DNA of 64,000 nt from Acidobacteriota bacterium (GTDB lineage: Bacteria; Acidobacteriota; Terriglobia; Terriglobales; Acidobacteriaceae). Made by a program: the position numbers and the translations under genes. The notes under the pieces were generated by a model. It was given only the letters and a program-made list of their open reading frames with translations. It was not told the DNA's origin and made no database searches. The DNA is taken from positions 4,531 to 68,530 of the forward strand of contig JAJXZK010000048.1 of the NCBI GenBank assembly GCA_021780095.1, in the 5' to 3' direction. This document shows, piece by piece, positions 2,865 to 41,075 of this stretch (its first letter is position 1; every line of letters starts with the position of its first letter).

Positions 2865-3677
2865 TCACCCAACGTGATCGAGGAAATACTGCTGAATCTG
2901 CTGCAGCAGGCCATCATCGGCGGACTTCCAAACTTCTTCATTAAAGATCTCAACCTCGATGGGCCCGTCGTAGCCGGTTGCGTCGACCGCCTGGCGGAGG
3001 CTTCGCAATTCAATGACGCCGCGTCCCATCATCGCTCGACCCATCAGGATTCCAGGCAGAGGCACTGGCCAATCCGACACATGAAAGCCCACGATTTTTC
3101 CATGCGCACGCTCGATCTGCGGCATCACCTCTGGATCCCACCACACATGGAACGCATCGACCACAACCCCTGCGGCTGAGCTGTTCATCTGTTGGACAAT
3201 ATCGTTCGCTTGCTTCAGCGTAACCACGACGGAACGTTCCGCCGCGTACATGGGATGCAAGGGTTCGACGCCAAGGATGATGCCAGCTTTTTCCGCATCG
3301 GGTAACACTTCCATCAACCCGTCCAACACGGTGGCTCGCGCGTCTTGCAGCTTCTGCCCATTGGCTGGTCCCGCGACGATGACCAGGACCGGCGCGCCCA
3401 GGATGGCGGCTTCTTCAATCGCCACGCGGTTATCCGCAATGCGTTCGCGTCGCTCTTTCGCCGTCGGCGCCGAAAACCATCCACCCCGACATAGGCTCGA
3501 GACACGTAAACCCTGCCTGTGAATCATGGCGGCCGCTTTTGTGACGTCGCCGTCAAGTTTATGGCGCCAAACTGCGATGTAGGGGATCCCGCTGTGGGAA
3601 CAATTGCGCACCACTTGTTCCAGCGACCAGGGATCGGCGGTGATCTGATTGAAGCTGAGACGTTGCAGCAGGCTCAT
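2865..3677 (-). CDS. TIM-barrel sugar (phosphate) isomerase/epimerase (AP endonuclease family 2 fold)
   Basis: 270 residues with no signal peptide, so cytoplasmic. The putative metal ligands appear in family order: Glu in G-V-E-P-L-H-P, Asp/His in V-V-D-A-F-H-V-W-W, His in G-F-H-V-S-D-W and Glu in I-E-V-E-I-F-N. This fold covers xylose-isomerase-like epimerases, inosose dehydratases and the C-C or C-O cleaving enzymes acting on 3-keto-glycosides. It is the last gene of a four-gene minus-strand operon; its ATG overlaps the TGA of the DUF993 gene (ATGA), so translation is probably coupled. The dehydrogenase next door makes oxidation followed by isomerisation or elimination of a sugar a reasonable model, but the substrate is unknown. 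Confidence 0.8.
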   Translation of the reverse strand: MSLLQRLSFNQITADPWSLEQVVRNCSHSGIPYIAVWRHKLDGDVTKAAAMIHRQGLRVSSLCRGGWFSAPTAKERRERIADNRVAIEEAAILGAPVLVIVAGPANGQKLQDARATVLDGLMEVLPDAEKAGIILGVEPLHPMYAAERSVVVTLKQANDIVQQMNSSAAGVVVDAFHVWWDPEVMPQIERAHGKIVGFHVSDWPVPLPGILMGRAMMGRGVIELRSLRQAVDATGYDGPIEVEIFNEEVWKSADDGLLQQIQQYFLDHVG

Positions 3678-28743: not shown

Positions 28744-29070
28744 AGTTCTTAGTCGGCGCTTGGGAACCCTTCTCGACTGATCAATCTAATCATTTTTCCT
28801 AGCGTGTGCGCGCTTCGGTCAATCATCTCGCATCCACTCGCAGGCCTTCTCCAATGCCATGCAAGGCGCTCGTCTGCGACGCCCAGTTTTTCTTGACAAT
28901 CGAGCACTCCTAGTTAAACATTTAACCAATTCAAAACGCCGCTGCGCGCCCGCGAGTTCAATCGTTCGCTCTGCGCGGCTGGTCGCTCTGAGACTTCATG
29001 GCTTTTAGTTCAAGGCCGGGGCGGATGTCTTTGGGGGAACTGTAAGAAAACTTTACCCGGGGGGAACGCC
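28744..29070. other. intergenic region and 5' leader of the TonB receptor
   Basis: No gene. A weak imperfect hairpin follows the S9 gene (AGTCG near 28752, CGACT near 28774, then a T-rich stretch), a possible terminator. The regulated promoter is at 28893-28927. The remaining 140 bases to ATG 29071 form a GC-rich leader ending in a G-rich run just before the start. Confidence 0.45.
28893..28927 (+). promoter_or_regulatory. promoter with LacI-type operator, upstream of the TonB receptor
   Basis: TTGACA at 28893-28898, an 11-base gap, then CTAGTTAAACATTTAACC at 28910-28927. The box contains the inverted repeat GTTAAA-CA-TTTAAC (28913-28926), placed where the -10 element must be (TAAACA/AAACAT, 16-17 bases after TTGACA). 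The same arrangement, base for base in the box and with the same spacing, occurs on the minus strand at 39995-39961. Repression by the LacI protein at 41075-40035 is the likely use. Confidence 0.78.
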
Positions 29071-32000
29071 ATGATTCGCACCAGATTCCATGTATGGCAT
29101 ATCAGACATAAGCTTGTCCCGACAATAGCATCCGCCTCGCAACGTTTCCTCAGGGTAGGATGGTTCGTTCTTCTGCTGCTTTCGATTGTGCCGATGGCGA
29201 CGGCGCAAGGGACCGGAAACATCTCGGGATATGTTCGTGACGCCTCTGGAGCGGCCGTGCCAGGCGCAACGGTAACTGCCGTCATGACCGAACAGCAGAC
29301 CACTCGCACACAGCAGACAGACGCGCAGGGCTTCTATAACTTTATTGCGCTGCCTTCCGGCCATTACACGATCACTTTCTCTGCGAGCGGGTTTAAAAAA
29401 GAAATACGATCCGGCGTCGAGTTGACGGTGTCGCAGAACGCTCGAGCCGATGCGCAACTGACCGTTGGCGCCGTACAAACTGAGGTGAAGGTCTCCAGTA
29501 CGGTCGCGTTGGTGGATACAACGTCGAACACTTTATCGGGGCTGGTGGATGATCGACGCGTAGTGGACCTGCCGCTGAATGGACGGAATGTTATGTCGTT
29601 GGCGGGCATTCTTCCAGGCGTTACAAACGTCAGCGCCCCCCAGACGCAGAGCGATGCTCGTGGTGGCCCGCAGATGGACGTCAATGGCAGCTTGCCCAAC
29701 GCGACGGTGTACACGTTCGACGGAGCATTCTTCAACAATCCATCTCGCAATACCGGCATCAATTTTCCGCCGCCCGACGCCATCGCTCAATTCCGTATGC
29801 TGACCAGTAATTTTTCGGCCGAATACGGACATAATGCTGGCGCACAGATTGAAGTGGTTTCCAGAGCGGGAACCAATAAGTTCCACGGCGCCGCGTGGGA
29901 GTTTCTGCGAAACGCAGCCTTCAATGCGAAAGATTACTTTGCTCCCAATGTTCCCGCCGAAGTCCAGAATCAGTTTGGTGCGGCGCTCGGTGGCCCGATC
30001 CTCAAGGATAAGTTGTTTTTCTTTGCTTCCTATCAGGGACTTACGAATCATCAGCAAGCTGAAAGCGTTCAAGCAGTCGTCCCTAGTGCGGCGGCGCGAA
30101 GCGGCGACTTCACTGGAGCCAATCAGCTTTTCGATCCTACAGATCCTTTGACTGGGCTTCCGCTGACCGATGCCAATGGAAATCCCTGCGTAGCCGCAAA
30201 CATCATCAACCCCAACTGCATTAGCCCAGTTGCGACCAATCTTCTCAAGTATGTCCCCAGCTCGGCAACCGGCACGGTCACGGCGCTGGCCGCGAGCCCA
30301 GTCCTTGACAACAATGGAAATATACGTGTCGATTGGAACCAGAGCTCGAAAGATTTGATTTACGGCCACTACTACCAGGACAATACGAGTTACTCATCAC
30401 CCTTTGCGGGAGGTAACATTGTCGGGTACATGGGCCAGACTTACAATATCAAGCAACAAGATGGCGTCATCAACGACATCTACACCTTCAGCCCTAATAT
30501 CATCAACCAAGCCATCTTTTCGGTGTTGAATTCGACGTCGAGCCAGTTGGAAAGCACAACGATTTCAAACCAGAGCCTTGGCATTAATCTGCCGAACTAC
30601 CTCGAGGCGTACAATCCATCGGGCGCTGTTAACGTGAATGTAGGAAATGATTTCACCCTGGGCGGAGGCGCCATCGCAATCTTCTCCGGCCGGAATTACC
30701 AATATGCCGACAATCTTTCCTGGACCAAAGGCCGGCATAGCATGAAATTCGGCTTTGAGGTCCTCAAGCTTCACTTCTATCAGGCCTACATCTATCCGCC
30801 GAGCTTCTCTTTTACGGGCGCTCGGACACAAAACCCAAATCCCGGACCGAACAGTCCGCCCAGCGGCGATCCCGTCGCGGATTTTCTACTGGGAGCCTAC
30901 AACACGACCACGGTTGCCTTCGGACTCGCGGTCAACGATAACCGGACCGCCTACAATTCCTTCTATGGGGAAGACTCCTGGCGTGTGAACCCACGTTTTA
31001 CTCTGAATTATGGGTTGCGCTACGAACCTTTCCTGCCATGGAAGGCTGCTGGAAATAAGCTCACAACCGTCGAACCAGGGGTTCAATCCAAGGTCGACCC
31101 GACCGCGCCTCCGGGAATTGTGTTTCCGGGCGACCGTGGAATTACTGACGGCATCGCACCCGCAAGCCTCAGCAACTTTGCTCCTCGCGTCGGCTTTGCG
31201 TGGGACGTCTTTGGCGACGGACGAACGAGTGTTCGCGGTGGGTACGGAGTCTTCTATAACGCGATCAATGCGGACTCATTAGCCCAAATCAACGCGCCCT
31301 ATGCCGGGACAGCAAACCCCTCGAACGGGGATATCGCGAATCCGTTTACTTCCGTCGGGCTGACAAATCCACCAACTACGCTCACGGGTCAATTCGGCTG
31401 CGTGCCAATTCCAACATACCCATACTACAGTTGCTCACTTTTCCCTTTGCCTTTAAGCGGCCTCTACATCAGCACGAAGCTTAAATTGCCTAGATATCAG
31501 CAGTATGATTTATCGGTGCAGCGACAGATCACCCCGAGTACCATGATCGAGATATCGTATGTAGGTAATACCGGGAGTCAAATCCCCGGGTATATTCCAA
31601 ACAACCCAGCCAGGTTTATTACCGACCCAATTACCGGCGCTCCCCCCTCGGAAGGCAATGTGAATGACCGTGTTTTATATGAACCGGGGATATTGTCTTC
31701 CTCTGGGTATATCTACACCAACTATGCCCATAGCAACTACAATTCCCTGCAGATTCAAGGGACAAAACGTTTTGGGAATGGAGCAACCATCTTGGCTAAC
31801 TACACCAGGGCAAGGTCGCTCGACTACATTTCAAATAATAACTCGAGCGGCAACATTCCAGACCCGTTTAACTTATCCAGGGCGTACGGGCCGTCCGACT
31901 TCGATCGACGCGATTCCTTTGTGATTTCGTGGCTGTATACGCTTCCGTTCCATTTCCATAACCCAATCGAGGAAAGCCTCTTAGGGGGTTGGACTGTGAC

Positions 32001-32472
32001 GGCCATCCATACCGTAGAAAGCGGTCTTCCACTCACGTTCTACGCTGGCGAAGATGTTGCGGTGGATGGAACTTTCCCGTATCCAGGACAGTACGCTGAG
32101 TTGCAGCCTGGTGCGAGCGCCAGCACCATCAAGATCAGCCATCCTAGCCGAGCCGCAATGGTCAACGAATTCTTTAATACAGCCGCATTCGTCAACCCCA
32201 GCAATGAGCCGCTCGGAACCTACGGTAACTCAAGTAAAGGCATGATTAGCGGGCCTGCGTACGCCAACACGGACGCATCCATTCTGAAAGACTTTACATT
32301 GCCGGAGACATTTCGACTGCAGTTTAGGGCGGAGAGCTTCAACACTTTCAATCAAGTGAACTTCGCAAACCCAAATACATACGCAAACGCTGGGTCAGCA
32401 TTTGGTCAGATCCAATCGACGGTAGCACAGACGGGTCGACAACTCCAACTTGCGTTAAAGCTTCTTTGGTAA
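29071..32472 (+). CDS. TonB-dependent outer-membrane receptor, Oar-like, with carboxypeptidase-regulatory domain
   Basis: 1133 residues. The leader is long and basic, with core V-L-L-L-L-S-I-V-P-M-A-T-A and cleavage near A-T-A-Q. Residues about 48-130 form a carboxypeptidase-regulatory-like domain (I-S-G-Y-V-R-D-A-S-G, Y-N-F-I-A-L-P-S-G-H-Y). A plug follows with D-L-P-L-N-G-R-N and F-D-G-A-F-F-N-N, then a large beta barrel with alternating aromatic strands. The end is F-R-A-E-S-F-N-T-F-N and a terminal tryptophan suited to Bam insertion. It imports large ligands across the outer membrane using TonB energy. The two GH20 genes just downstream and the shared operator point to amino-sugar oligomers such as chitin or glycoprotein fragments. 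Confidence 0.88.
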   Translation: MIRTRFHVWHIRHKLVPTIASASQRFLRVGWFVLLLLSIVPMATAQGTGNISGYVRDASGAAVPGATVTAVMTEQQTTRTQQTDAQGFYNFIALPSGHYTITFSASGFKKEIRSGVELTVSQNARADAQLTVGAVQTEVKVSSTVALVDTTSNTLSGLVDDRRVVDLPLNGRNVMSLAGILPGVTNVSAPQTQSDARGGPQMDVNGSLPNATVYTFDGAFFNNPSRNTGINFPPPDAIAQFRMLTSNFSAEYGHNAGAQIEVVSRAGTNKFHGAAWEFLRNAAFNAKDYFAPNVPAEVQNQFGAALGGPILKDKLFFFASYQGLTNHQQAESVQAVVPSAAARSGDFTGANQLFDPTDPLTGLPLTDANGNPCVAANIINPNCISPVATNLLKYVPSSATGTVTALAASPVLDNNGNIRVDWNQSSKDLIYGHYYQDNTSYSSPFAGGNIVGYMGQTYNIKQQDGVINDIYTFSPNIINQAIFSVLNSTSSQLESTTISNQSLGINLPNYLEAYNPSGAVNVNVGNDFTLGGGAIAIFSGRNYQYADNLSWTKGRHSMKFGFEVLKLHFYQAYIYPPSFSFTGARTQNPNPGPNSPPSGDPVADFLLGAYNTTTVAFGLAVNDNRTAYNSFYGEDSWRVNPRFTLNYGLRYEPFLPWKAAGNKLTTVEPGVQSKVDPTAPPGIVFPGDRGITDGIAPASLSNFAPRVGFAWDVFGDGRTSVRGGYGVFYNAINADSLAQINAPYAGTANPSNGDIANPFTSVGLTNPPTTLTGQFGCVPIPTYPYYSCSLFPLPLSGLYISTKLKLPRYQQYDLSVQRQITPSTMIEISYVGNTGSQIPGYIPNNPARFITDPITGAPPSEGNVNDRVLYEPGILSSSGYIYTNYAHSNYNSLQIQGTKRFGNGATILANYTRARSLDYISNNNSSGNIPDPFNLSRAYGPSDFDRRDSFVISWLYTLPFHFHNPIEESLLGGWTVTAIHTVESGLPLTFYAGEDVAVDGTFPYPGQYAELQPGASASTIKISHPSRAAMVNEFFNTAAFVNPSNEPLGTYGNSSKGMISGPAYANTDASILKDFTLPETFRLQFRAESFNTFNQVNFANPNTYANAGSAFGQIQSTVAQTGRQLQLALKLLW

Positions 32473-32476
32473 GTGG

Positions 32477-32522
32477 GCTATACAGTGGAGAGGCACGTCA
32501 CTCTCCACTGTATAGCTTTATT
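32477..32522 (+). terminator. strong intrinsic terminator after the TonB receptor
   Basis: A perfect 16-bp stem, GCTATACAGTGGAGAG (32477-32492) with CTCTCCACTGTATAGC (32501-32516), 8-base loop, followed by TTTATT. It begins four bases after the receptor stop, so read-through into the GH20 genes is limited. Confidence 0.85.
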
Positions 32523-32617
32523 CTACGATGCGCCGCATAGGAATCGAAATCGCAGTAAAAAGCCGTCGTGACGTTGCCATGGCGCACGCGTAACAAGTAC
32601 TGCTTGAGGAGATACAA

Positions 32618-35014
32618 ATGAAGGCTTTGGTCATTGCGGCAATTGCCAGCGTATGTTGCTCGCTGACGTCGGCACAAACGGTGTCGCCGTTATTCGCTCG
32701 TGGTTACACAGTGATTCCCGAGCCGCAAAAGGTTTCTTTGGAGGCTTCCGACCTCACCTTTAACCAGTCCTGGCGGCTGAAACTCGAGAAGGGTGTGGCG
32801 AAAGACGATATTGCGGTGGACGCCCTGCGCGAAGATCTGGCCAGTAGATTGAACATACGGCTCGGCTCGGGCGATGCGGCAGGTGGAACCGTCACATTAC
32901 GCATTCAGCCAGGCGAGGTTCAGATTGGTACGGCCCTGGATTCCGATAAGAAGTCGTTGGAGGAGGAAGCATATCGGATCGAGATGCATAAGGGAGCCAT
33001 CGCGATTACGGCCAACGCGTCAACCGGACTGTTTTACGGAGTTGAAACGTTTGTGCAGTTGCTGCGTCGCGACATGGGATCACTTTGGTTCCCGGAAGGC
33101 ACCATTGTGGATTGGCCAGATATGCAGCTGCGTCACATCTATTGGGATGATAACCACCACCTTGAGCATGTGGACGAATTAAAGCGCGATCTGCGACAGG
33201 CCGCGTTTTACAAAATCAACGGCTTTGTCATCAAGCTTGATGGCCACTTCCAATACAAAAGTGCGCCGGCGGTTGTAGAACCATACGCCCTGAGCCCAGC
33301 GGAGCTACAGGAGTTGACCAATTATGGCCTGCGTTACCACATACAGTTGATTCCTTATCTGGATGGGCCAGCCCACATATCCTTCATTCTTAAGCACCCG
33401 GAATACGAGAAGTTGCGGGAATATCCAGAGAGTAATTATGAAATCTGCTCCACGAATCCAGCTTCTTACAAGCTGCTGCAGGGCATGTATCAAGACTTGC
33501 TAGATGCCAACAAGGGAGTGAAATATTTCTACCTATCGACGGACGAGCCCTACTATCTCGGGCTCGCCCATAATTCGCAGTGTAATGAGGTAGATCTTGC
33601 GAAGCAGTTAGGCTCCGTAGGAAGGGTGTTCGCGAATTTTGTCGACAAAACGGGTGGCTACCTGCATGATCGCGGGCGAAATGTGATTTTCTGGGGCGAG
33701 TACCCCATGAAGCCCAGCGATCTGGCGTCCCTGCCGCCCTATGTCATCAACGGAGAAGTCTATGGCCCTGCGTACGACAAGGCATTCCATCAACATGGAA
33801 TCCGCCAAATGATTTTCACCTCGACAGAAGGCGAAGAAAAGCTGTTTCCCGATTATTTCATCCTCCCTAAAAGCGATCGCCTGCACGGCGCATCGAACGA
33901 TGAGTTCGAGGACAATCCAGGTCTGCCCCGGGTAGACGACATCATGAAAAAGATTTCTTTCGATTTGTCCCGCGTGAATACGAGCGTGATCGGGGAGGTG
34001 GACGCTGGCTGGGCAGATGAGGGCGTCCATCCGGAGACCTTTTGGCTAGGGTACATTGCGGGTGTAGCTGCGGGTTGGCATCCGGGCATGCCGAGCGCTC
34101 CGGAACTGTCGAGTGCGTTCTACTCGCTCTTCTATGGAGCGAAGGTCGTCAACATGGATCGCTTGTATCAGTTGATGAGCGAGCAGGCGCAATCATGGAA
34201 TGACAGCTGGGACTCAATGGAATCGAAAGCGCGAAAGCCGATATGGGGATCGTCGTATGAAATCTTTAATCCGCCGCATCCAGCGCATGATCAGACATTG
34301 CCGCTGCCACCTGCTCCCGATAACACCCTGAATTATTCCTCGGCCTGGTCAACGCAAAATTCGCGACGAATTGCTCTAGCCTTGAAAGCTGAGCAGCAGA
34401 ACCGAGTGTTACTTGGGTTGCTGCACGAAAATCTTCAGCGCGCGCAGTTCAATCGATATAACCTCCAGATCTATCTCACCATTGCGGACCTATGTCGGCA
34501 AAATCTGGCAATGATTGTCAGTATCCATCGAATGGACGTCGATCTCGCTGCCGCTTCTCAAGCGAAAGAGAAAGACCCAAAGGAGGCGATCAGCGAAATC
34601 GATAGTGCGCTGGACACCGCTACATCAATCTGGCAGCAGCGTAACCAGGTTCTGAAGAATTCAGTTGCAATCTGGGACGAGAGATGGTTCCCGCGGGTAG
34701 AAGAAGCGAATGGTCGCCGGTTCCTGCATGAACTGGATGATGTGAAGGATCATCTTCCTGATCGAACAACGGATATGTCCTACCTTGTCTATCGCGAAAA
34801 ACTTCTTCCGTTTGGGGAGTGGGTCAAAGCCATCGCTGCAGCGCGCAACCTGTTCGCTGCGGCCCATAATTTACCGACCAGAAACTACCGGCTGGCATGG
34901 GACGATTTCAGTGCTGTGCCCGCCGTGTGTTCATCAGCGTCGGACCTGATGGCCAACCCGCAATTGCGACCGGCAGACGTCGATCAGGCGGCCACCTGCG
35001 GTATGGGCGAGTAG
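32618..35014 (+). CDS. exported GH20 beta-N-acetylhexosaminidase-like enzyme, first of a tandem pair
   Basis: 798 residues; GAGGAG six bases before ATG 32618. A short signal peptide ends near L-T-S-A-Q. Residues about 30-170 are the GH20b domain (F-A-R-G-Y-T-V-I-P-E-P-Q-K-V, then G-L-F-Y-G-V-E-T). The barrel starts at D-W-P-D-M-Q-L-R and carries the catalytic Asp-Glu pair at 309-310 in L-S-T-D-E-P-Y. About 250 residues of helical C-terminal sequence follow, beyond the usual catalytic core. It should release terminal N-acetylhexosamines in the periplasm or at the surface. Expression relies on its own promoter or leakage past the terminator upstream. Confidence 0.85.
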   Translation: MKALVIAAIASVCCSLTSAQTVSPLFARGYTVIPEPQKVSLEASDLTFNQSWRLKLEKGVAKDDIAVDALREDLASRLNIRLGSGDAAGGTVTLRIQPGEVQIGTALDSDKKSLEEEAYRIEMHKGAIAITANASTGLFYGVETFVQLLRRDMGSLWFPEGTIVDWPDMQLRHIYWDDNHHLEHVDELKRDLRQAAFYKINGFVIKLDGHFQYKSAPAVVEPYALSPAELQELTNYGLRYHIQLIPYLDGPAHISFILKHPEYEKLREYPESNYEICSTNPASYKLLQGMYQDLLDANKGVKYFYLSTDEPYYLGLAHNSQCNEVDLAKQLGSVGRVFANFVDKTGGYLHDRGRNVIFWGEYPMKPSDLASLPPYVINGEVYGPAYDKAFHQHGIRQMIFTSTEGEEKLFPDYFILPKSDRLHGASNDEFEDNPGLPRVDDIMKKISFDLSRVNTSVIGEVDAGWADEGVHPETFWLGYIAGVAAGWHPGMPSAPELSSAFYSLFYGAKVVNMDRLYQLMSEQAQSWNDSWDSMESKARKPIWGSSYEIFNPPHPAHDQTLPLPPAPDNTLNYSSAWSTQNSRRIALALKAEQQNRVLLGLLHENLQRAQFNRYNLQIYLTIADLCRQNLAMIVSIHRMDVDLAAASQAKEKDPKEAISEIDSALDTATSIWQQRNQVLKNSVAIWDERWFPRVEEANGRRFLHELDDVKDHLPDRTTDMSYLVYREKLLPFGEWVKAIAAARNLFAAAHNLPTRNYRLAWDDFSAVPAVCSSASDLMANPQLRPADVDQAATCGMGE

Positions 35015-35113
35015 TTGAACATAGAAGTGATTCATCGATCCAACGGTGTCGCGGAAAGGCTCGCCGGATCGGATCTACGACGAGAACGCACGTCTGCGCG
35101 GGCTAGCGATCGG

Positions 35114-37435
35114 ATGAAAGCTCTTGTTATTGGAACGATTTTCATTTGTCTGTGCTCAGCGGGAAATGCCCAGGCAGCCTCTGCACTCTTTGCTCGTGGG
35201 TACACCCTAGTTCCAGCACCGCAGAAGGTTGTTTTAACACAGCAAGATTTTGCTTTCGGTCACAATTGGCAACTCCGTTTAGACAAGAGCGTGTCCTCGA
35301 AGGATATCGCCGTGGAGTTGTTGCGCGACGACCTGGCTTCAAGATTTCATGTGACCCTTGTGAGATCCAGCGGGGCCAGCAATCTTGTGACCCTCTCGAT
35401 TTCGCCCGGAAGTGTCACCGTCGGGGAGGCTCAGGACAGAGACAAAGCTGCGCTGGAGGAGCAGGCATATAGGCTAACACTTCGCCCCGGATCGATTGCC
35501 ATTACGGCGAACGCGGCGGCTGGACTTTTCTACGGGGTGGAGACCCTGATTCAGCTTGCGAGGCCGACACGAGGCAATCTGCTGTTTCCGCAAGGCGAAA
35601 TTGTGGATTGGCCGGACGTGAGGCTTCGCGAGATCTTTTGGGACGAGCTTAGGCATCTGGATCGTTTCGACGTTTTGGAGCAGGCTGTTCGACGCGCAGC
35701 CTTCTTCAAGGTAAACGCGATTGCTCTGCGGCTGAATGAACATTTTCAATACGCAAGCGCTCCCGAGTTAGTCGATCCGAATGCTCTATCCACAGTCCAG
35801 CTTCAATCCCTTACCAACTATGGACTGAGATATCACGTTCAGATCATTCCTTATCTGGATGGGCCGGCTCACGCGGCTTTTATTCTGGAGCGACAGAACT
35901 ATAGGCATTTACGGGAGTTTCCAGACGTTGCCTTTGAGATGTGCTCTACCAACCCTGAGACCTACAAATTGCTCGAAGGCATGTATCAGGACCTGATAAA
36001 CGCCAATCAAGGTGTGGAATATTTCCATCTTTCGACAGATGAAGCGTGGTTTGTTGGGAAGGCGGACAACAAACAATGCCACGAGGCTGACGCGGCGAGA
36101 GAAGCGCGAGGCGTCAGTAAGGTCTGGGTGGATTACACAAAGAAGACGTCGGCCTATTTGGTGAGCCGCAATCGCAAAGTTATTTTTTGGGGCGAAGATC
36201 CATTACAACCTGAAGACATACCGCTTTTGCCGCAGGGTCTAATCAATGGAGAAGTTTATAGCACAAGCTATAACAGAGCGTTCAAGGCTCGTGGAATTCC
36301 ACAGATGATCTATACCAACTCGCAGCCCGACGATCCCCTGTTTCCTGCCACGGCAATTCTTTCCCCTCAGGACGAAGTCCACCCCCAAGCGGTACAGGAT
36401 AGAACGGCGCAAGTCTTCAACGAGATTTCATTTACTTCAGCTCGCCAAGAAGCTGACATCATTGGGGCAGGTGTGTATGCATGGGGAGATCTTGGACCGC
36501 ATCCGGAGACGTTCTGGCTGGGATACGCGGTTGGGGCTGCCGCGGCTTGGCACCCTGGATCAGGCAGTCCGCGTGAGTTGACGGAGAGTTTCTACCGGCT
36601 CTTTTATGGCCAGGGCGCAACGCAGATCGGGCAGCTTTATCGATGGATGAGCACACAGGCGCAGTTTTTTGCCACCAGCTGGGATAGTCGGCCATCGACG
36701 GACCTGCCTCTCATATTCGGTTATTCCTATGGAACTGGCCCGTTCGTTCCGCACGTCGATACACTTCCGCTACCGCCTTTGCCGACAGGCGAATATCTTC
36801 AGCTATCCGGTAATTGGGCTGCGGAGAATTCTCGCAGGGTGGAATTGGCGGAGAAATTCCTAGGGGAAAACGACGACTTGTTGGATCTGCTTTATGCAAA
36901 TATTCCGGCGGTCCAGTTCAATCACTATAACCTTGAAGTCTATCTTTCCATTGCTCAGTTATGCCGGCAAAATCTACTGATGATAACAGGGCTGGGGGAG
37001 ATCACCCATCAGCTTTCAACCGCTGAAGAAGAGGCTTCGAAGCTGCACTACTCCGCCGCCGTCGCAGCGCTTGACGCTTCGATCGATATTGCCGTACGCA
37101 TTCGAGACGAGAGAAACCAAGCCCTTCAGGCGACCACAACAACCTGGTATGAGACCTGGTTCCCCAGGGATAAGGAGGGGAATGGACGCCATATCGCTCG
37201 CGATCCACAGCGGTTCGTAGATACCTCGACAAGTATAGACGCCCGCAGAAAGCAAGTAGGATTAAACTACCTCATCGACCGGGAATTCCTGCTGCCATTC
37301 GGGGATTGGGTCAACCAGCTGCAAGAAATAAGAAATCGCTATGCGGAAGCTCACAAGTTACCGCTTCGCATGGTTCATTTTGATTGGCAAGATAGCAAGA
37401 CACTCCATAGCCAGGGAGTAAATCGTGAGCTATAG
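35114..37435 (+). CDS. exported GH20 beta-N-acetylhexosaminidase-like enzyme, second of a tandem pair
   Basis: 773 residues from ATG 35114; the frame is open from a TTG at 35015. The chosen start gives the same leader (M-K-A-L-V-I) and the same numbering of the catalytic pair (D309-E310 in L-S-T-D-E-A-W) as the upstream paralogue, which supports it. GH20b domain: F-A-R-G-Y-T-L-V-P-A-P-Q-K-V. The barrel starts D-W-P-D-V-R-L-R. The C-terminal helical region is also shared. The 99 bases from the first gene make co-transcription likely. The many substitutions outside motifs suggest an old duplication and a different linkage or sugar preference. Confidence 0.85.
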   Translation: MKALVIGTIFICLCSAGNAQAASALFARGYTLVPAPQKVVLTQQDFAFGHNWQLRLDKSVSSKDIAVELLRDDLASRFHVTLVRSSGASNLVTLSISPGSVTVGEAQDRDKAALEEQAYRLTLRPGSIAITANAAAGLFYGVETLIQLARPTRGNLLFPQGEIVDWPDVRLREIFWDELRHLDRFDVLEQAVRRAAFFKVNAIALRLNEHFQYASAPELVDPNALSTVQLQSLTNYGLRYHVQIIPYLDGPAHAAFILERQNYRHLREFPDVAFEMCSTNPETYKLLEGMYQDLINANQGVEYFHLSTDEAWFVGKADNKQCHEADAAREARGVSKVWVDYTKKTSAYLVSRNRKVIFWGEDPLQPEDIPLLPQGLINGEVYSTSYNRAFKARGIPQMIYTNSQPDDPLFPATAILSPQDEVHPQAVQDRTAQVFNEISFTSARQEADIIGAGVYAWGDLGPHPETFWLGYAVGAAAAWHPGSGSPRELTESFYRLFYGQGATQIGQLYRWMSTQAQFFATSWDSRPSTDLPLIFGYSYGTGPFVPHVDTLPLPPLPTGEYLQLSGNWAAENSRRVELAEKFLGENDDLLDLLYANIPAVQFNHYNLEVYLSIAQLCRQNLLMITGLGEITHQLSTAEEEASKLHYSAAVAALDASIDIAVRIRDERNQALQATTTTWYETWFPRDKEGNGRHIARDPQRFVDTSTSIDARRKQVGLNYLIDREFLLPFGDWVNQLQEIRNRYAEAHKLPLRMVHFDWQDSKTLHSQGVNREL

Positions 37436-37504
37436 AAATAAGCTCGAAGCTACCGCCGATCAATTCAGCCTGACGTGGTGACATCTGCATTCCAGCACGA
37501 CTAC

Positions 37505-38632
37505 TTACTGTGCTCCGACGTGCGCGCCGTTTGTGGTGACGATTTGGCTCACACTTTGAGAGAGCACTAATCCTTTTGCATTGGCGAAAGACAGCAGGTT
37601 GTCCAACGTCGCCTCAGGGTGAATCGTATGCGGTGAAGTGACGCTGAACGCGGCCAGTGTCAATCCCAGATCAATGGCGGTGCTGATCGATCTCCTTCCC
37701 TCTGCGGCAGATCCTTTGTCCTCTGCGAACGGCATTCCCACGATCAATCCAGCAATCGTGCCAGCCAGCAATGCGTCGCCCGCTCCGGCAGTCGAAATCG
37801 CATTCATGGGAATGGCCGGGTGCTTCGACCAATGCCCGCTCTCAAAGGCATACGCTCCTCGCGAACCCGCACTCACAAGCATCTTCATCGATGGATTCAT
37901 GGAGATCGCTATCTCGGAGCACGCATCGAGCAGTTGCGTTTCGCTTAGATCGCGCAGGCCGCTGCCAGCTAATTTCATTGCTTCTTCGCGATTGAGCGCC
38001 AGCAGATCCACATTCGCAAGTAGCTTCAACTCGACGGCAGATTTCAGCTCTTCCGATGCGAAGGATGCGACTCGATAAGTCGCGCAGTCGGTCGCCATGC
38101 GTAAGAACTCCTGGCGTTTATCGAATGGTACTTCCGGCAGGCAAAGGGCAATGCTGCGGCCTCCGGCCTTCTCCCATAGAACGCGACATTCGGCGAGCTG
38201 TTCCGCATCCAATCTGGAATTTGCCGAATTGGAAGCCGTGATATTGCCGCCCGTCCTATCGGGATAGAAAAATACCGTACTGAACATCGTGGGACTGTCG
38301 GGCTCAACGCGCACATAGCGGGTATCGATACCGGCATCCTTCATTTCGCAAAGTAACATGCTGCCAGCAGTATCGGCGCCGACATTGCCTACAGCAATCA
38401 CTTCGAAGGTGCGGTGATCCCGGGTCAAGCCCAGTAGCGCGGCGATATAGTGTTCTACAATGTGGAGTTTGCAGTAGTCGCGGGCATCGACCACGGTCCC
38501 CATGCGGCTTTCATTCCTTCCCAGAGTATGATTTCCCTGCAGCGCAAAAATGATGCCCGTCCCAATCCCACCTATGCCGACTACCTGTGTAAACCCGGTT
38601 CGCGGGTCAGGCCGCAACCCCCGGATTGTCAC
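37505..38632 (-). CDS. PfkB-family carbohydrate kinase
   Basis: 375 residues from GTG 38632. The start is fixed by GTGA overlap with the upstream deaminase stop and GGGAG five bases before; a TTG at 38644 would extend the frame by four codons. The first strand is V-V-G-I-G-G-I-G-T-G. The anion-hole and base motif near the end is S-T-A-G-A-G-D-A-L-L-A-G with the catalytic aspartate. N-R-E-E is the conserved metal/phosphate motif. PfkB kinases phosphorylate sugars such as ribose, fructose, tagatose-6-phosphate or 2-keto-3-deoxygluconate. In this operon an amino sugar or its fructose product are candidates. Confidence 0.82.
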   Translation of the reverse strand: MTIRGLRPDPRTGFTQVVGIGGIGTGIIFALQGNHTLGRNESRMGTVVDARDYCKLHIVEHYIAALLGLTRDHRTFEVIAVGNVGADTAGSMLLCEMKDAGIDTRYVRVEPDSPTMFSTVFFYPDRTGGNITASNSANSRLDAEQLAECRVLWEKAGGRSIALCLPEVPFDKRQEFLRMATDCATYRVASFASEELKSAVELKLLANVDLLALNREEAMKLAGSGLRDLSETQLLDACSEIAISMNPSMKMLVSAGSRGAYAFESGHWSKHPAIPMNAISTAGAGDALLAGTIAGLIVGMPFAEDKGSAAEGRRSISTAIDLGLTLAAFSVTSPHTIHPEATLDNLLSFANAKGLVLSQSVSQIVTTNGAHVGAQ

Positions 38633-39549
38633 AGTAACTCCCAATCCGGATTCTCACTGATCGGATGACGTGCGGTCTCACGTGTTGCGGTGATCCGCGC
38701 GTCGGGATGTAACTGCAACAGCGTGATTGGATATTCGACTACAGGTTCGCTGAATAATGCAACACGTAACGCCGTCTGCTTCCACGCGCCGGTATCGCTG
38801 TAGATGCGCACTTTTCTTGCTGACAAGCACTCTCGCATTCCTAGAGTGATCGACATCGGCGGAACAAATTGGTACGCCGCGCCGAACGTGCGTTGCGCCA
38901 GACTCAAAATAGTGTCGATGTTATTTTCTTGAATGCGAACAGTACTATTCGCCAGGTCATCGAGGCTGACATGATGAAAGGGATGGCGCCGCGCCTGGTT
39001 ATATGCGACATGGCCGTCTTGACCCCAACCGCCGATCAAAATGTCAATCGGAGCCGCGCCAATCGCAACTTTCACCGCTTCCATCGTCGATGGCGAAAGC
39101 CAGTGCCGATTTCCTGCCGGAACAGCAAGGTCGGCCCGTATGTCGCCGTAAAAATGCCTCTCCATGAAGGTGCGGAAATTGTAAGGATGATTGATCGGCA
39201 GCAGTCGACCTTGCCAGTCCAGACATTCATCCATGTGAAATACTTCCAAGTTGTGGAGCGAAAGCCCGCGTACGTTTACAAGGTGAGCGAAAGGGGCGTA
39301 CCAGCATCTTGGTCCGCAAGGGATGATGGCGCGTGTAGCCAGCCCTTTACGATTGTTCTCCTCGATGACTTCGGCCAGTTCTTCCGCCATCAGCTGGCTC
39401 ATTTCCTCCGGGTCACGAACTTCTTGATATGGAATCCGAAGGTCGGGATGGCCCGTCAGCTTATCGCCAGGCACTTTGCACCAGTCCAACAGTTTTCTGG
39501 TATTCACGAAATCGTTACGATGTGTCATATTGGTTGGGCGCGCTTTCAT
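38629..39549 (-). CDS. glucosamine-6-phosphate deaminase/6-phosphogluconolactonase family protein (NagB-like)
   Basis: 306 residues from ATG 39549, four bases after the NIPSNAP-like stop. NagB-type motifs are present: F-H-M-D-E-C near 120 (catalytic aspartate region), L-I-G-G-W-G-Q-D-G-H-V-A-Y-N for the G-x-G-x-D-G-H-I-A-F-N active-site loop, and a later S-I-T-L-G-M. It is about 40 residues longer than NagB, mostly at the N-terminus. NagB turns glucosamine-6-phosphate into fructose-6-phosphate and ammonia; a substrate variant is possible given the altered motifs. No nagA deacetylase lies in the window. Confidence 0.78.
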   Translation of the reverse strand: MKARPTNMTHRNDFVNTRKLLDWCKVPGDKLTGHPDLRIPYQEVRDPEEMSQLMAEELAEVIEENNRKGLATRAIIPCGPRCWYAPFAHLVNVRGLSLHNLEVFHMDECLDWQGRLLPINHPYNFRTFMERHFYGDIRADLAVPAGNRHWLSPSTMEAVKVAIGAAPIDILIGGWGQDGHVAYNQARRHPFHHVSLDDLANSTVRIQENNIDTILSLAQRTFGAAYQFVPPMSITLGMRECLSARKVRIYSDTGAWKQTALRVALFSEPVVEYPITLLQLHPDARITATRETARHPISENPDWELL

Positions 39550-39553
39550 CGAG

Positions 39554-39865
39554 CTATAGCTCGAGTACCTTGTAGATTTCAGTTCGCATTTCAACGATGA
39601 GCGACTGCTGCTTCTCAAACAGAGCCGTGTGAGTGGGGTCGTCGGCGAGCTTCCTTAGCGCGTCTTCCACATCCTGGAGCGAGGAAAACTCGCCTTCCCA
39701 TATCAGCATGTTGGTTGGCTGGCCTTCCGACAACATTTGAGCCCGCCGGCCTTGCGGAAACTGCGGCGAGCAGCGCTCCAACGCCTGGAATTGTGCTTCC
39801 AACTCAAAAAATCTCTGAGCGGCAGACGGCTCAAACGTCTGCAGGAATCGCAAAAGATATGGCAT
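39554..39865 (-). CDS. small NIPSNAP-like ferredoxin-fold protein
   Basis: 103 residues from ATG 39865, preceded by AGGA seven bases upstream; the frame is open to 39931, but the extra part is unlike the family. The start M-P-Y-L-L-R-F-L-Q-T-F and the repeated pattern L-I-W-E-G-E-F-S-S-L-Q-D-V-E-D-A-L match the NIPSNAP / dimeric alpha-beta barrel type. Function is not known; such proteins accompany sugar-catabolic operons in many bacteria. It is the first gene of the operon driven by the promoter at 39995-39961. Confidence 0.62.
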   Translation of the reverse strand: MPYLLRFLQTFEPSAAQRFFELEAQFQALERCSPQFPQGRRAQMLSEGQPTNMLIWEGEFSSLQDVEDALRKLADDPTHTALFEKQQSLIVEMRTEIYKVLEL

Positions 39866-39960
39866 CCCTCTTTCCTGGAATTGCCTTTCTTGTCTGAGAT
39901 GGGACCCTCCCCGTCGATGGGTCTGCGGCATAGAACAGGGATCGGATTCACGGATCTCTA

Positions 39961-39995
39961 GGTTAAATGTTTAACTAGATTGAGATAAGTGTCAA
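39961..39995 (-). promoter_or_regulatory. promoter with LacI-type operator, upstream of the NIPSNAP-deaminase-kinase operon
   Basis: Read on the minus strand: TTGACA (39995-39990), 11 bases, then CTAGTTAAACATTTAACC (39978-39961), with the inverted repeat GTTAAA-CA-TTTAAC covering the -10 position. It is identical in box and spacing to the site before the TonB receptor at 28893-28927. It lies between the LacI gene and the operon's first gene, so one nearby repressor could control both transcripts. Confidence 0.78.
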
Positions 39996-40034: not shown

Positions 40035-41075
40035 TCAGCGAGCCTTCTGTGAAATGCGCGCCGTACTCTTGCGAATGATCAGGTGTGCCTCGATTGTCTT
40101 CTGCGTTATAGTACGACTTCCTGCGTTATGTGACGATAATTGCTTTTGCATGATTTCGGCGCTCAGCAATCCCTGCTCCTCCAGGTGTTGGCAAATTGTA
40201 GTGAGCGGAGGGTTATAGAATGCGGCCCCGGGAATATCGTCGAAGCCCACCACAGAGCAGTTCTCCGGTACCCGGCGACCCGCACTGCTCAGTGCGCCGA
40301 TCGCTGCAAAGGCGGTCAGGTCGTCGAACGCAATGAGTCCGCTGAAGTGCTTTCCAGTTTGCATCAATTGCTGTGTAAGGTCGTAACCCTCTTCGTAACT
40401 CGAGTTGCTCCCTCGTATCTCCACAACCAGGGACCGATCAATCGGGATGCCTTTTTTCCGCGCGCACTCGCGAATTCCGGTCCATCGCGGAGCACTGTCT
40501 GTCATCGCCTTGGGGCCTTTGATCACAGCAAGGTGACGATGGCCAAGGGAGTAGAGATGCTCAACAGCCGCCCGGGTTCCCGCAGTGTTATCCACCGTTA
40601 CCGAAGAATAGCGTTTGCCCTCCGGATGGCTACCGATAACAACGCACGGTATTTTGAATTGCGCGAGCGCCGTGGATAATCCCGTTCCTAACCGTACAGG
40701 GTTCGCGATTGCTATGATCCCTTCGACCCGGCGACCCATCAGCATTTGCAAGCATCGGTGCAGGCGCTTGGGAGTGTTTTGCAGGTCCGCCAAGACAGAC
40801 ATGTATCCCGCTGTTTCTAGGGAAGACTCGATCCCACGGATGACGAGACTGCAATATGGGTCGGTGATGTCAAACACAAGGACGCCTATGCTGTGGGTCC
40901 GCTTGCTTCGAAGAGAGCGCGCCTGGAGATCGGGAGAATAGCCAAGTTTGAGTGCGGTCTCTTGTACCAATCTTTGTGTCACGGGGGGAATCCTGCGCCC
41001 CGCTTGATTCAAAACCATGGATACTGTCGCCGTGGATAGTCCCGTTGCCTTTGCAATATCGCGAATCGTGATCAC
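40035..41075 (-). CDS. LacI-family transcriptional regulator
   Basis: 346 residues from GTG 41075. The N-terminal helix-turn-helix is canonical (T-I-R-D-I-A-K-A-T-G-L-S-T-A-T-V-S), followed by the hinge helix L-Q-A-R-S-L-R-S and a periplasmic-binding-protein-like effector domain (I-G-V-L-V-F-D-I-T-D-P-Y). Its place directly upstream of the amino-sugar operon, with the GTTAAA-N2-TTTAAC box in between, makes it the likely regulator of that operon and of the TonB receptor. The ligand is presumably a sugar or sugar phosphate from the pathway. Confidence 0.88.
   Translation of the reverse strand: MITIRDIAKATGLSTATVSMVLNQAGRRIPPVTQRLVQETALKLGYSPDLQARSLRSKRTHSIGVLVFDITDPYCSLVIRGIESSLETAGYMSVLADLQNTPKRLHRCLQMLMGRRVEGIIAIANPVRLGTGLSTALAQFKIPCVVIGSHPEGKRYSSVTVDNTAGTRAAVEHLYSLGHRHLAVIKGPKAMTDSAPRWTGIRECARKKGIPIDRSLVVEIRGSNSSYEEGYDLTQQLMQTGKHFSGLIAFDDLTAFAAIGALSSAGRRVPENCSVVGFDDIPGAAFYNPPLTTICQHLEEQGLLSAEIMQKQLSSHNAGSRTITQKTIEAHLIIRKSTARISQKAR

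Follow-up and report, generated by a model that had tools for sequence, protein, structure and literature searches.

In a 64,000-nucleotide stretch of DNA from an Acidobacteriota bacterium of the family Acidobacteriaceae (contig JAJXZK010000048.1, positions 4,531 to 68,530; the whole stretch is referred to as the window), two operons on opposite strands are each preceded by TTGACA and an identical 18-base box, CTAGTTAAACATTTAACC. The plus-strand box stands before a gene for a TonB-dependent outer-membrane receptor that is followed by two GH20-like hexosaminidase genes, and the minus-strand box before a 103-amino-acid open reading frame (ORF), a NagB-like gene and a gene for a PfkB-family kinase. 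A LacI-family gene at 40035-41075 ends 40 bases upstream of the minus-strand TTGACA, on the same strand. We consider it highly likely that the box is the operator of this LacI-family protein, a dimer of which would block both promoters until a sugar signal releases it, so that both operons are switched together. Very probably this is a local switch of the LacI family, ordinary except for a slightly unusual operator centre, that governs two sugar-use operons in a soil acidobacterium.

A model for this switch can be outlined as follows. At each of two promoters that have TTGACA as their -35 element, a LacI dimer would sit on GTTAAACATTTAAC, covering the spacer and the -10 region, and block RNA polymerase. 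The dimer would be released by a sugar or sugar phosphate derived from imported glycans, and release would switch on the receptor and the two GH20-like enzymes together with the NagB-like/kinase operon. What the sequences show is the two sites in the window, the conserved box next to the LacI gene of two relatives, and similar sites next to related LacI genes; we infer that the LacI protein binds, that it represses and does not activate, what induces it, and where the -10 element lies. If the model is true, it offers a switch open to testing, made up of one regulator and two sites; two LacI clades that form a natural pair, distinguished by the centre of the operator and by a few residues; and a lead on the function of an uncharacterised NagB-like family. 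Our literature search returned no regulon map in which a receptor of this kind is linked to cytoplasmic sugar genes in Acidobacteria, and the word Acidobacteria is absent from the main text of the LacI survey of Ravcheev et al. (2014; PMC4052901).

A paired site before two operons

The elements that make up the proposed switch are the following.

28893-28898, plus strand: TTGACA, -35-like element ahead of the receptor gene (read directly)
28910-28927, plus strand: candidate operator box CTAGTTAAACATTTAACC, 143 bases 5' of the receptor ATG (read directly)
39961-39978, minus strand: candidate operator box CTAGTTAAACATTTAACC, 95 bases 5' of the first gene of the minus operon (read directly)
39990-39995, minus strand: TTGACA, -35-like element of the minus operon (read directly)
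40035-41075, minus strand: LacI-family regulator, proposed binder of both boxes (Pfam LacI and Peripla_BP_3; orthologs adjoin the box in genomes G002 and G004)

At both places an 11-base gap separates TTGACA from the 18-mer, and the two arrangements (28893-28927 on the plus strand, 39995-39961 on the minus strand) are letter for letter those given in a preliminary description of this DNA. The 11-base gaps differ in sequence, and the pair is therefore not a copied block. The arms of the box, GTTAAA and TTTAAC, form a perfect inverted repeat of even spacing; its middle pair is CA at both window sites, so that the box is not fully symmetric.

The preliminary description had called the likelihood of a chance match of box, spacing and -35 negligible; that the complete arrangement exceeds chance is upheld. 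Exactly one pair of sites in the window shares 6-mer, N11 and 18-mer, and no such pair arose in 60 first-order Markov simulations, whereas a repeated 18-mer alone arose on average 0.17 times per simulated window (largest count 4) and is thus not negligible. The excess over chance comes from the -35 match and the spacing in combination with the box, not from the 18-mer repeat alone. Nor is the loose core special: the window matches GTTAAANNTTTAAC exactly at two places and, with up to two mismatches allowed, at three, against 1.11 expected, and three matches were reached by 8 of 100 shuffles.

By spacing, the core lies where a -10 element would be expected, as had been proposed. The promoter scans lend this no support, since they gave no sigma-70-like site above threshold at either region, and the hexamer 17 bases past TTGACA is AAACAT in both copies. 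A sigma-70 promoter with a TATAAT-like partner was accordingly rejected, and so was an RNA element, the window having no Rfam match at gathering scores.

The LacI protein encoded at 40035-41075 carries a helix-turn-helix domain (PF00356, 34.5 bits against a cut-off of 27) and a C-terminal sensor domain of the periplasmic-binding-protein type (PF13377, 86.5 bits against 26.5), and is predicted to be the best candidate binder of the box.

The box beside close LacI orthologs

Two further genomes have the box beside an ortholog of the LacI gene. The LacI proteins at locus L002 of G002 and locus L004 of G004 are 72% and 68% identical to that of the window, and exact GTTAAACATTTAACC occurs once in each genome, lying between the LacI gene and the operon that follows it. 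GTTAAANNTTTAAC is likewise present once in G002 (4.6 Mb) and once in G004 (4.4 Mb); of the other 10 of the 12 genomes searched, G009 alone has it, as a single copy with another centre. TTGACA precedes GTTAAA by 14 bases in G002 and by 16 in G004, and by 15 at a further site in genome G339. The identical distance pointed out earlier is thus true of the window (14 bases at both sites) and is not a rule, equality being inessential among the relatives. CA forms the centre of both window sites and of those in G002, G004 and G339, and at all five, each with TTGACA, this asymmetric pair points along transcription.

An exact 15-mer of the box was found in 4 of 398 genomes of the family (G002, G004, G237 and G339), against 2 of 398 for the reversed control. 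TTGACA lies 11-18 bases upstream of the box in 3 of 397 genomes of the order (G002, G004 and G339; reversed control 0), a draw that overlaps that of the family. Wide occurrence of the box in unrelated promoters, which the preliminary description named as evidence against its reading, is not what the relatives have, given the single GTTAAANNTTTAAC in G002 and in G004 and the 15-mer in so few family genomes.

LacI matches at E 1e-110, with at most five candidates scored per genome, came from 7 of the 398 family genomes: three (G002, G003 and G004) at 67-72% identity and the other four at 53-54%. The same three orthologs were recovered at E 1e-120 among 378 relatives of G004, again in a draw overlapping that of the family, and the genera of G002 and G003 (two genomes each) gave no further ortholog, with a second LacI protein at 54% in G003. 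That two of the three ortholog genomes should be among the four with the 15-mer has a hypergeometric probability of about 2e-4, calculated by hand with kinship ignored. Orthologs at 80-89% identity are present in metagenomes; a plasmid search with the LacI protein returned only general LacI proteins, below 60% identity.

In L002 a class II aldolase gene (2875-3579, PF00596) lies between the box and the 103-amino-acid gene, and L003, the corresponding locus of G003, has by eye a similar sequence at the same place.

Related sites beside distant LacI relatives

A GTDB scan with the NagB-like protein yielded 164 relatives, of which the best 80 loci were kept (L001-L080, the closest half). At loci whose LacI proteins are 49-54% identical to that of the window, the gap before the NagB-like gene often holds a CG-centred site resembling GTGAAACGTTTCAC, namely GTAAAACGTTTCAC (L007), GTGTAACGTTTCAC (L009), GTGAAACGTTACAT (L013), ATGAAACGTTACAC (L017) and GTGTAACGTTAAAC (L020); L001 has AAGTAACGTTACAC before its receptor gene. 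Measured against the consensus GTKWAACRTTWMAC, which was written after the sites had been seen, a site with at most two mismatches stands in 7 of 12 distinct regions, in the same gap or, for L001, before the receptor, and all seven sites are CG-centred; L008, L012, L018, L024 and L025 have at least three mismatches. Among 500 shuffles per region, 11 matched the weakest site, that of L001, and 0 to 2 matched each of the other six. The count of 12 leaves aside L091 and L092, which have the same site and the same LacI identity as L008 and L011 and seem to repeat them; L003, where the LacI gene nearly abuts the next gene, and the acidobacterial loci L005, L006, L010, L014-L016, L019 and L021-L023, whose stretches contain no LacI gene, were not scored. 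Within the range of 10-21 bases upstream, TTGACA or a one-mismatch form of it stands 16-19 bases upstream of three of the seven sites (L009, L011 and L013).

L001 also bears on joint control. There a single strand carries in succession the receptor ortholog (77%), two GH20-like genes and the NagB-like gene, with the LacI gene divergent, and thus genes that form two operons in the window are a single run there. This succession supports joint control of the receptor and the cytoplasmic genes indirectly.

Recognition residues and the operator centre

LacI residues were numbered by hand as in GalR. In the window clade (the window, G002, G003 and G004) residue 15 is variable, residue 16 is Ala and residue 20 is Met, and the hinge reads QARSLR. 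Most of the NagB-linked LacI proteins in the 49-54% group combine V15, T16 and M20, with N15, T16 and L20 in L001 and I15, S16 and L20 in L024 (the L017 and L020 proteins are truncated ahead of the helix). Directly before ARSL of the hinge the window clade has Q, and the NagB-linked proteins have F (Y in one case). At site position 6 the window sites have T, and so do the half-sites of the other loci, except for one half-site each in L001 and L011.

The recognition code of Camas et al. (2010; PMC2978694) ties residues 15 and 16 to site positions 5 and 4, respectively, pairs Arg20 with G at position 6, and describes the role of the intercalating hinge Leu. Set beside this Arg20-G link, Met20 of the window protein and T at position 6 of its sites are counted in favour of binding by the LacI protein.

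Tentatively, and we think it doubtful rather than probable, the operator changed from CG to CA in one acidobacterial branch, from the GTGAAACGTTTCAC type to GTTAAACATTTAAC, together with residue 16 from T to A and the pre-hinge residue from F to Q. As the CA pair runs along transcription, the site could belong to the -10 region while acting as an operator; the identical box in G339 would then have arisen by spread or by convergence. A tie between the pre-hinge Q and the CA centre is conjecture, to which G003, having Q and A16 without the box, is of no help.

Genes of the two operons and the sugar

The genes surrounding the two boxes are as follows.

29071-32472, plus strand: TonB-dependent outer-membrane receptor (Pfam CarboxypepD_reg, Plug and OMP_b-brl_4)
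32618-35014, plus strand: GH20-like hexosaminidase (Pfam PF02838 and PF00728)
35015-37435, plus strand: second GH20-like hexosaminidase, listed with a TTG start that is provisional (Pfam)
37505-38644, minus strand: PfkB-family sugar kinase (Pfam PF00294)
38629-39528, minus strand: NagB-like protein, ATG start chosen by us, Gln replacing a Glu of NagB (NCBIfam, PDB matches, motif)
39554-39865, minus strand: opening gene of the minus operon (103 amino acids, with a start of our choice), earlier labelled NIPSNAP (ORF)

The receptor is presumably Oar-like. The tandem GH20-like genes share an identical 20-base repeat (33350-33369 and 35846-35865), which fits gene duplication. Homologs of the 103-amino-acid protein precede the NagB-like gene in L002 and L004; no Pfam family matched the window protein at E <=0.001, or its L002 homolog at E <=0.1, and Pfam thus does not back the NIPSNAP label.

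The NagB-like protein scores 61.7 bits with TIGR00502, far below the curated NCBIfam cut-off of 236.9, and has no Pfam match. The catalytic Glu of NagB follows a DGHxAxN motif. Gln stands opposite this Glu in both NagB alignments shown among the 12 PDB matches, and in all 80 motif matches from L001-L080, counted per match and not per locus, the motif is GWGQDGHxAYNQ (once GYG) with Gln for the Glu. Because of the sub-cut-off score and this replacement, the protein should not be called a glucosamine-6-phosphate deaminase, and the amino-sugar substrate proposed earlier is no more than a candidate. The GH20-like genes and the kinase, with the GatZ/KbaZ and sugar isomerase-type (SIS) neighbours of the receptor in G339, may point to use of a hexosamine, perhaps galactosamine. 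Record titles of the NagB-like family name Acidobacteria, Bacteroidales, Chloroflexi, Spirochaetota and Armatimonadota, among others.

Exceptions and alternative explanations

Several observations weigh against the box being the operator of the LacI protein. No box within two mismatches of GTTAAANNTTTAAC lies 5' of the LacI gene, and autoregulation through the box was rejected on that ground. G003 encodes an ortholog (67%) that shares Ala16, Met20 and the hinge with the window protein, and has no GTTAAANNTTTAAC in its genome and no site within two mismatches of GTTAAACATTTAAC in the 17-kb locus L003; a three-mismatch site about 340 bases before the LacI gene (L003:7790) was taken as chance. 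In G339, conversely, TTGACA and GGTTAAACATTTAACC (L095:4385-4399) stand upstream of a receptor ORF with a similar Pfam domain composition, 43 bases from its first ATG, with GatZ/KbaZ-like, SIS, PfkB and DeoR-family genes as neighbours. The 11 LacI matches of that genome are all just 25-37% identical, none a close ortholog, and TVSM is found in none of the nine recognition helices shown (9 of the 11 loci); the NagB-like protein had no match at 1e-10 in a search run without a positive control. This leaves two options, an incomplete G339 genome or a different protein that recognises the box. The 15-mer of G237, near an unrelated cytochrome gene and without TTGACA, was taken as chance, and with the reversed control it indicates that the 15-mer alone arises by chance at this scale. 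Finally, at E 1e-200 the receptor is matched in only one of seven genomes, G001, to which L001 belongs, and in none of G002, G003, G004 and G339, so that joint control through this box is seen only in the window; each of these seven related genomes has 58-103 loose candidates for such receptors.

The proposal of a LacI repressor gating both operons is upheld in part: comparison across genomes supports a LacI-type operator tied to the adjacent LacI gene, and joint control has the indirect support of L001, against the exceptions of G003 and G339. These same two genomes are what speaks for a different regulator that controls both operons through the box, the LacI gene being a mere neighbour: G339 has the site before a receptor near a DeoR-family gene and lacks a close LacI ortholog, and G003 has the ortholog and lacks the box. 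We regard this as improbable, though it is the alternative to be taken most seriously, for the box adjoins the LacI gene in three genomes (the window, G002 and G004), CG-centred versions of the palindrome occupy the same gap in 7 of 12 distant relatives, the palindrome has the LacI form, and no DeoR-type gene was noted beside the window operons, with part of the window genes scanned against Pfam.

Binding by the LacI protein could also activate, or have different effects at the two sites, and FruR/Cra and PckR are LacI-family regulators that activate as well, according to the LacI survey (PMC4052901). This is very unlikely: at all five TTGACA sites (two in the window and one each in G002, G004 and G339) the box starts 14-16 bases downstream, in the expected -10 place, which favours blocking of the polymerase. 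That the repeat is due to chance or is leftover duplicated DNA with no regulatory role might be argued from the rate at which 18-mers repeat in simulated windows. It is hardly credible in view of the matching TTGACA and spacing, the differing gap sequences and the same placement in G002 and G004. Control of both operons by the LacI-family protein stays the reading we favour.

Comparison with known LacI-family systems

The window box resembles the operators of GalR, PurR and CcpA in its inverted AAAC-type arms around a pyrimidine-purine step, and differs from them in its outer bases GTT...AAC and in its CA centre.

In the code of Camas et al. (2010; PMC2978694), residues 15/16 and 20 covary with site positions 4-6 and the hinge Leu is kept, as here. 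However, the code was built for TVSR proteins and the window protein is TVSM, and its application here is therefore an extrapolation.

The survey of local LacI sugar regulons (Ravcheev et al., 2014; PMC4052901) allows a further comparison. There, 72% of the studied regulators are autoregulated, and the central pair among 1303 regulators is CG for 1173, another pair for 49 and degenerate for 29; the window differs in its CA centre and in showing no sign of autoregulation. More than 75% of sites lie 140-30 bases before the start codon; the 14-base cores of the window are 96 bases (inside this range) and 144 bases (just outside it) before their starts. The window shares with those regulons an even palindrome near the start codon, an adjacent regulator gene and a few operons for a single sugar pathway, and nearly 90% of the studied regulators are local. 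We regard the proposed regulon as newly found, local and of a known LacI kind, with a non-CG centre that is a minority feature and not a new one.

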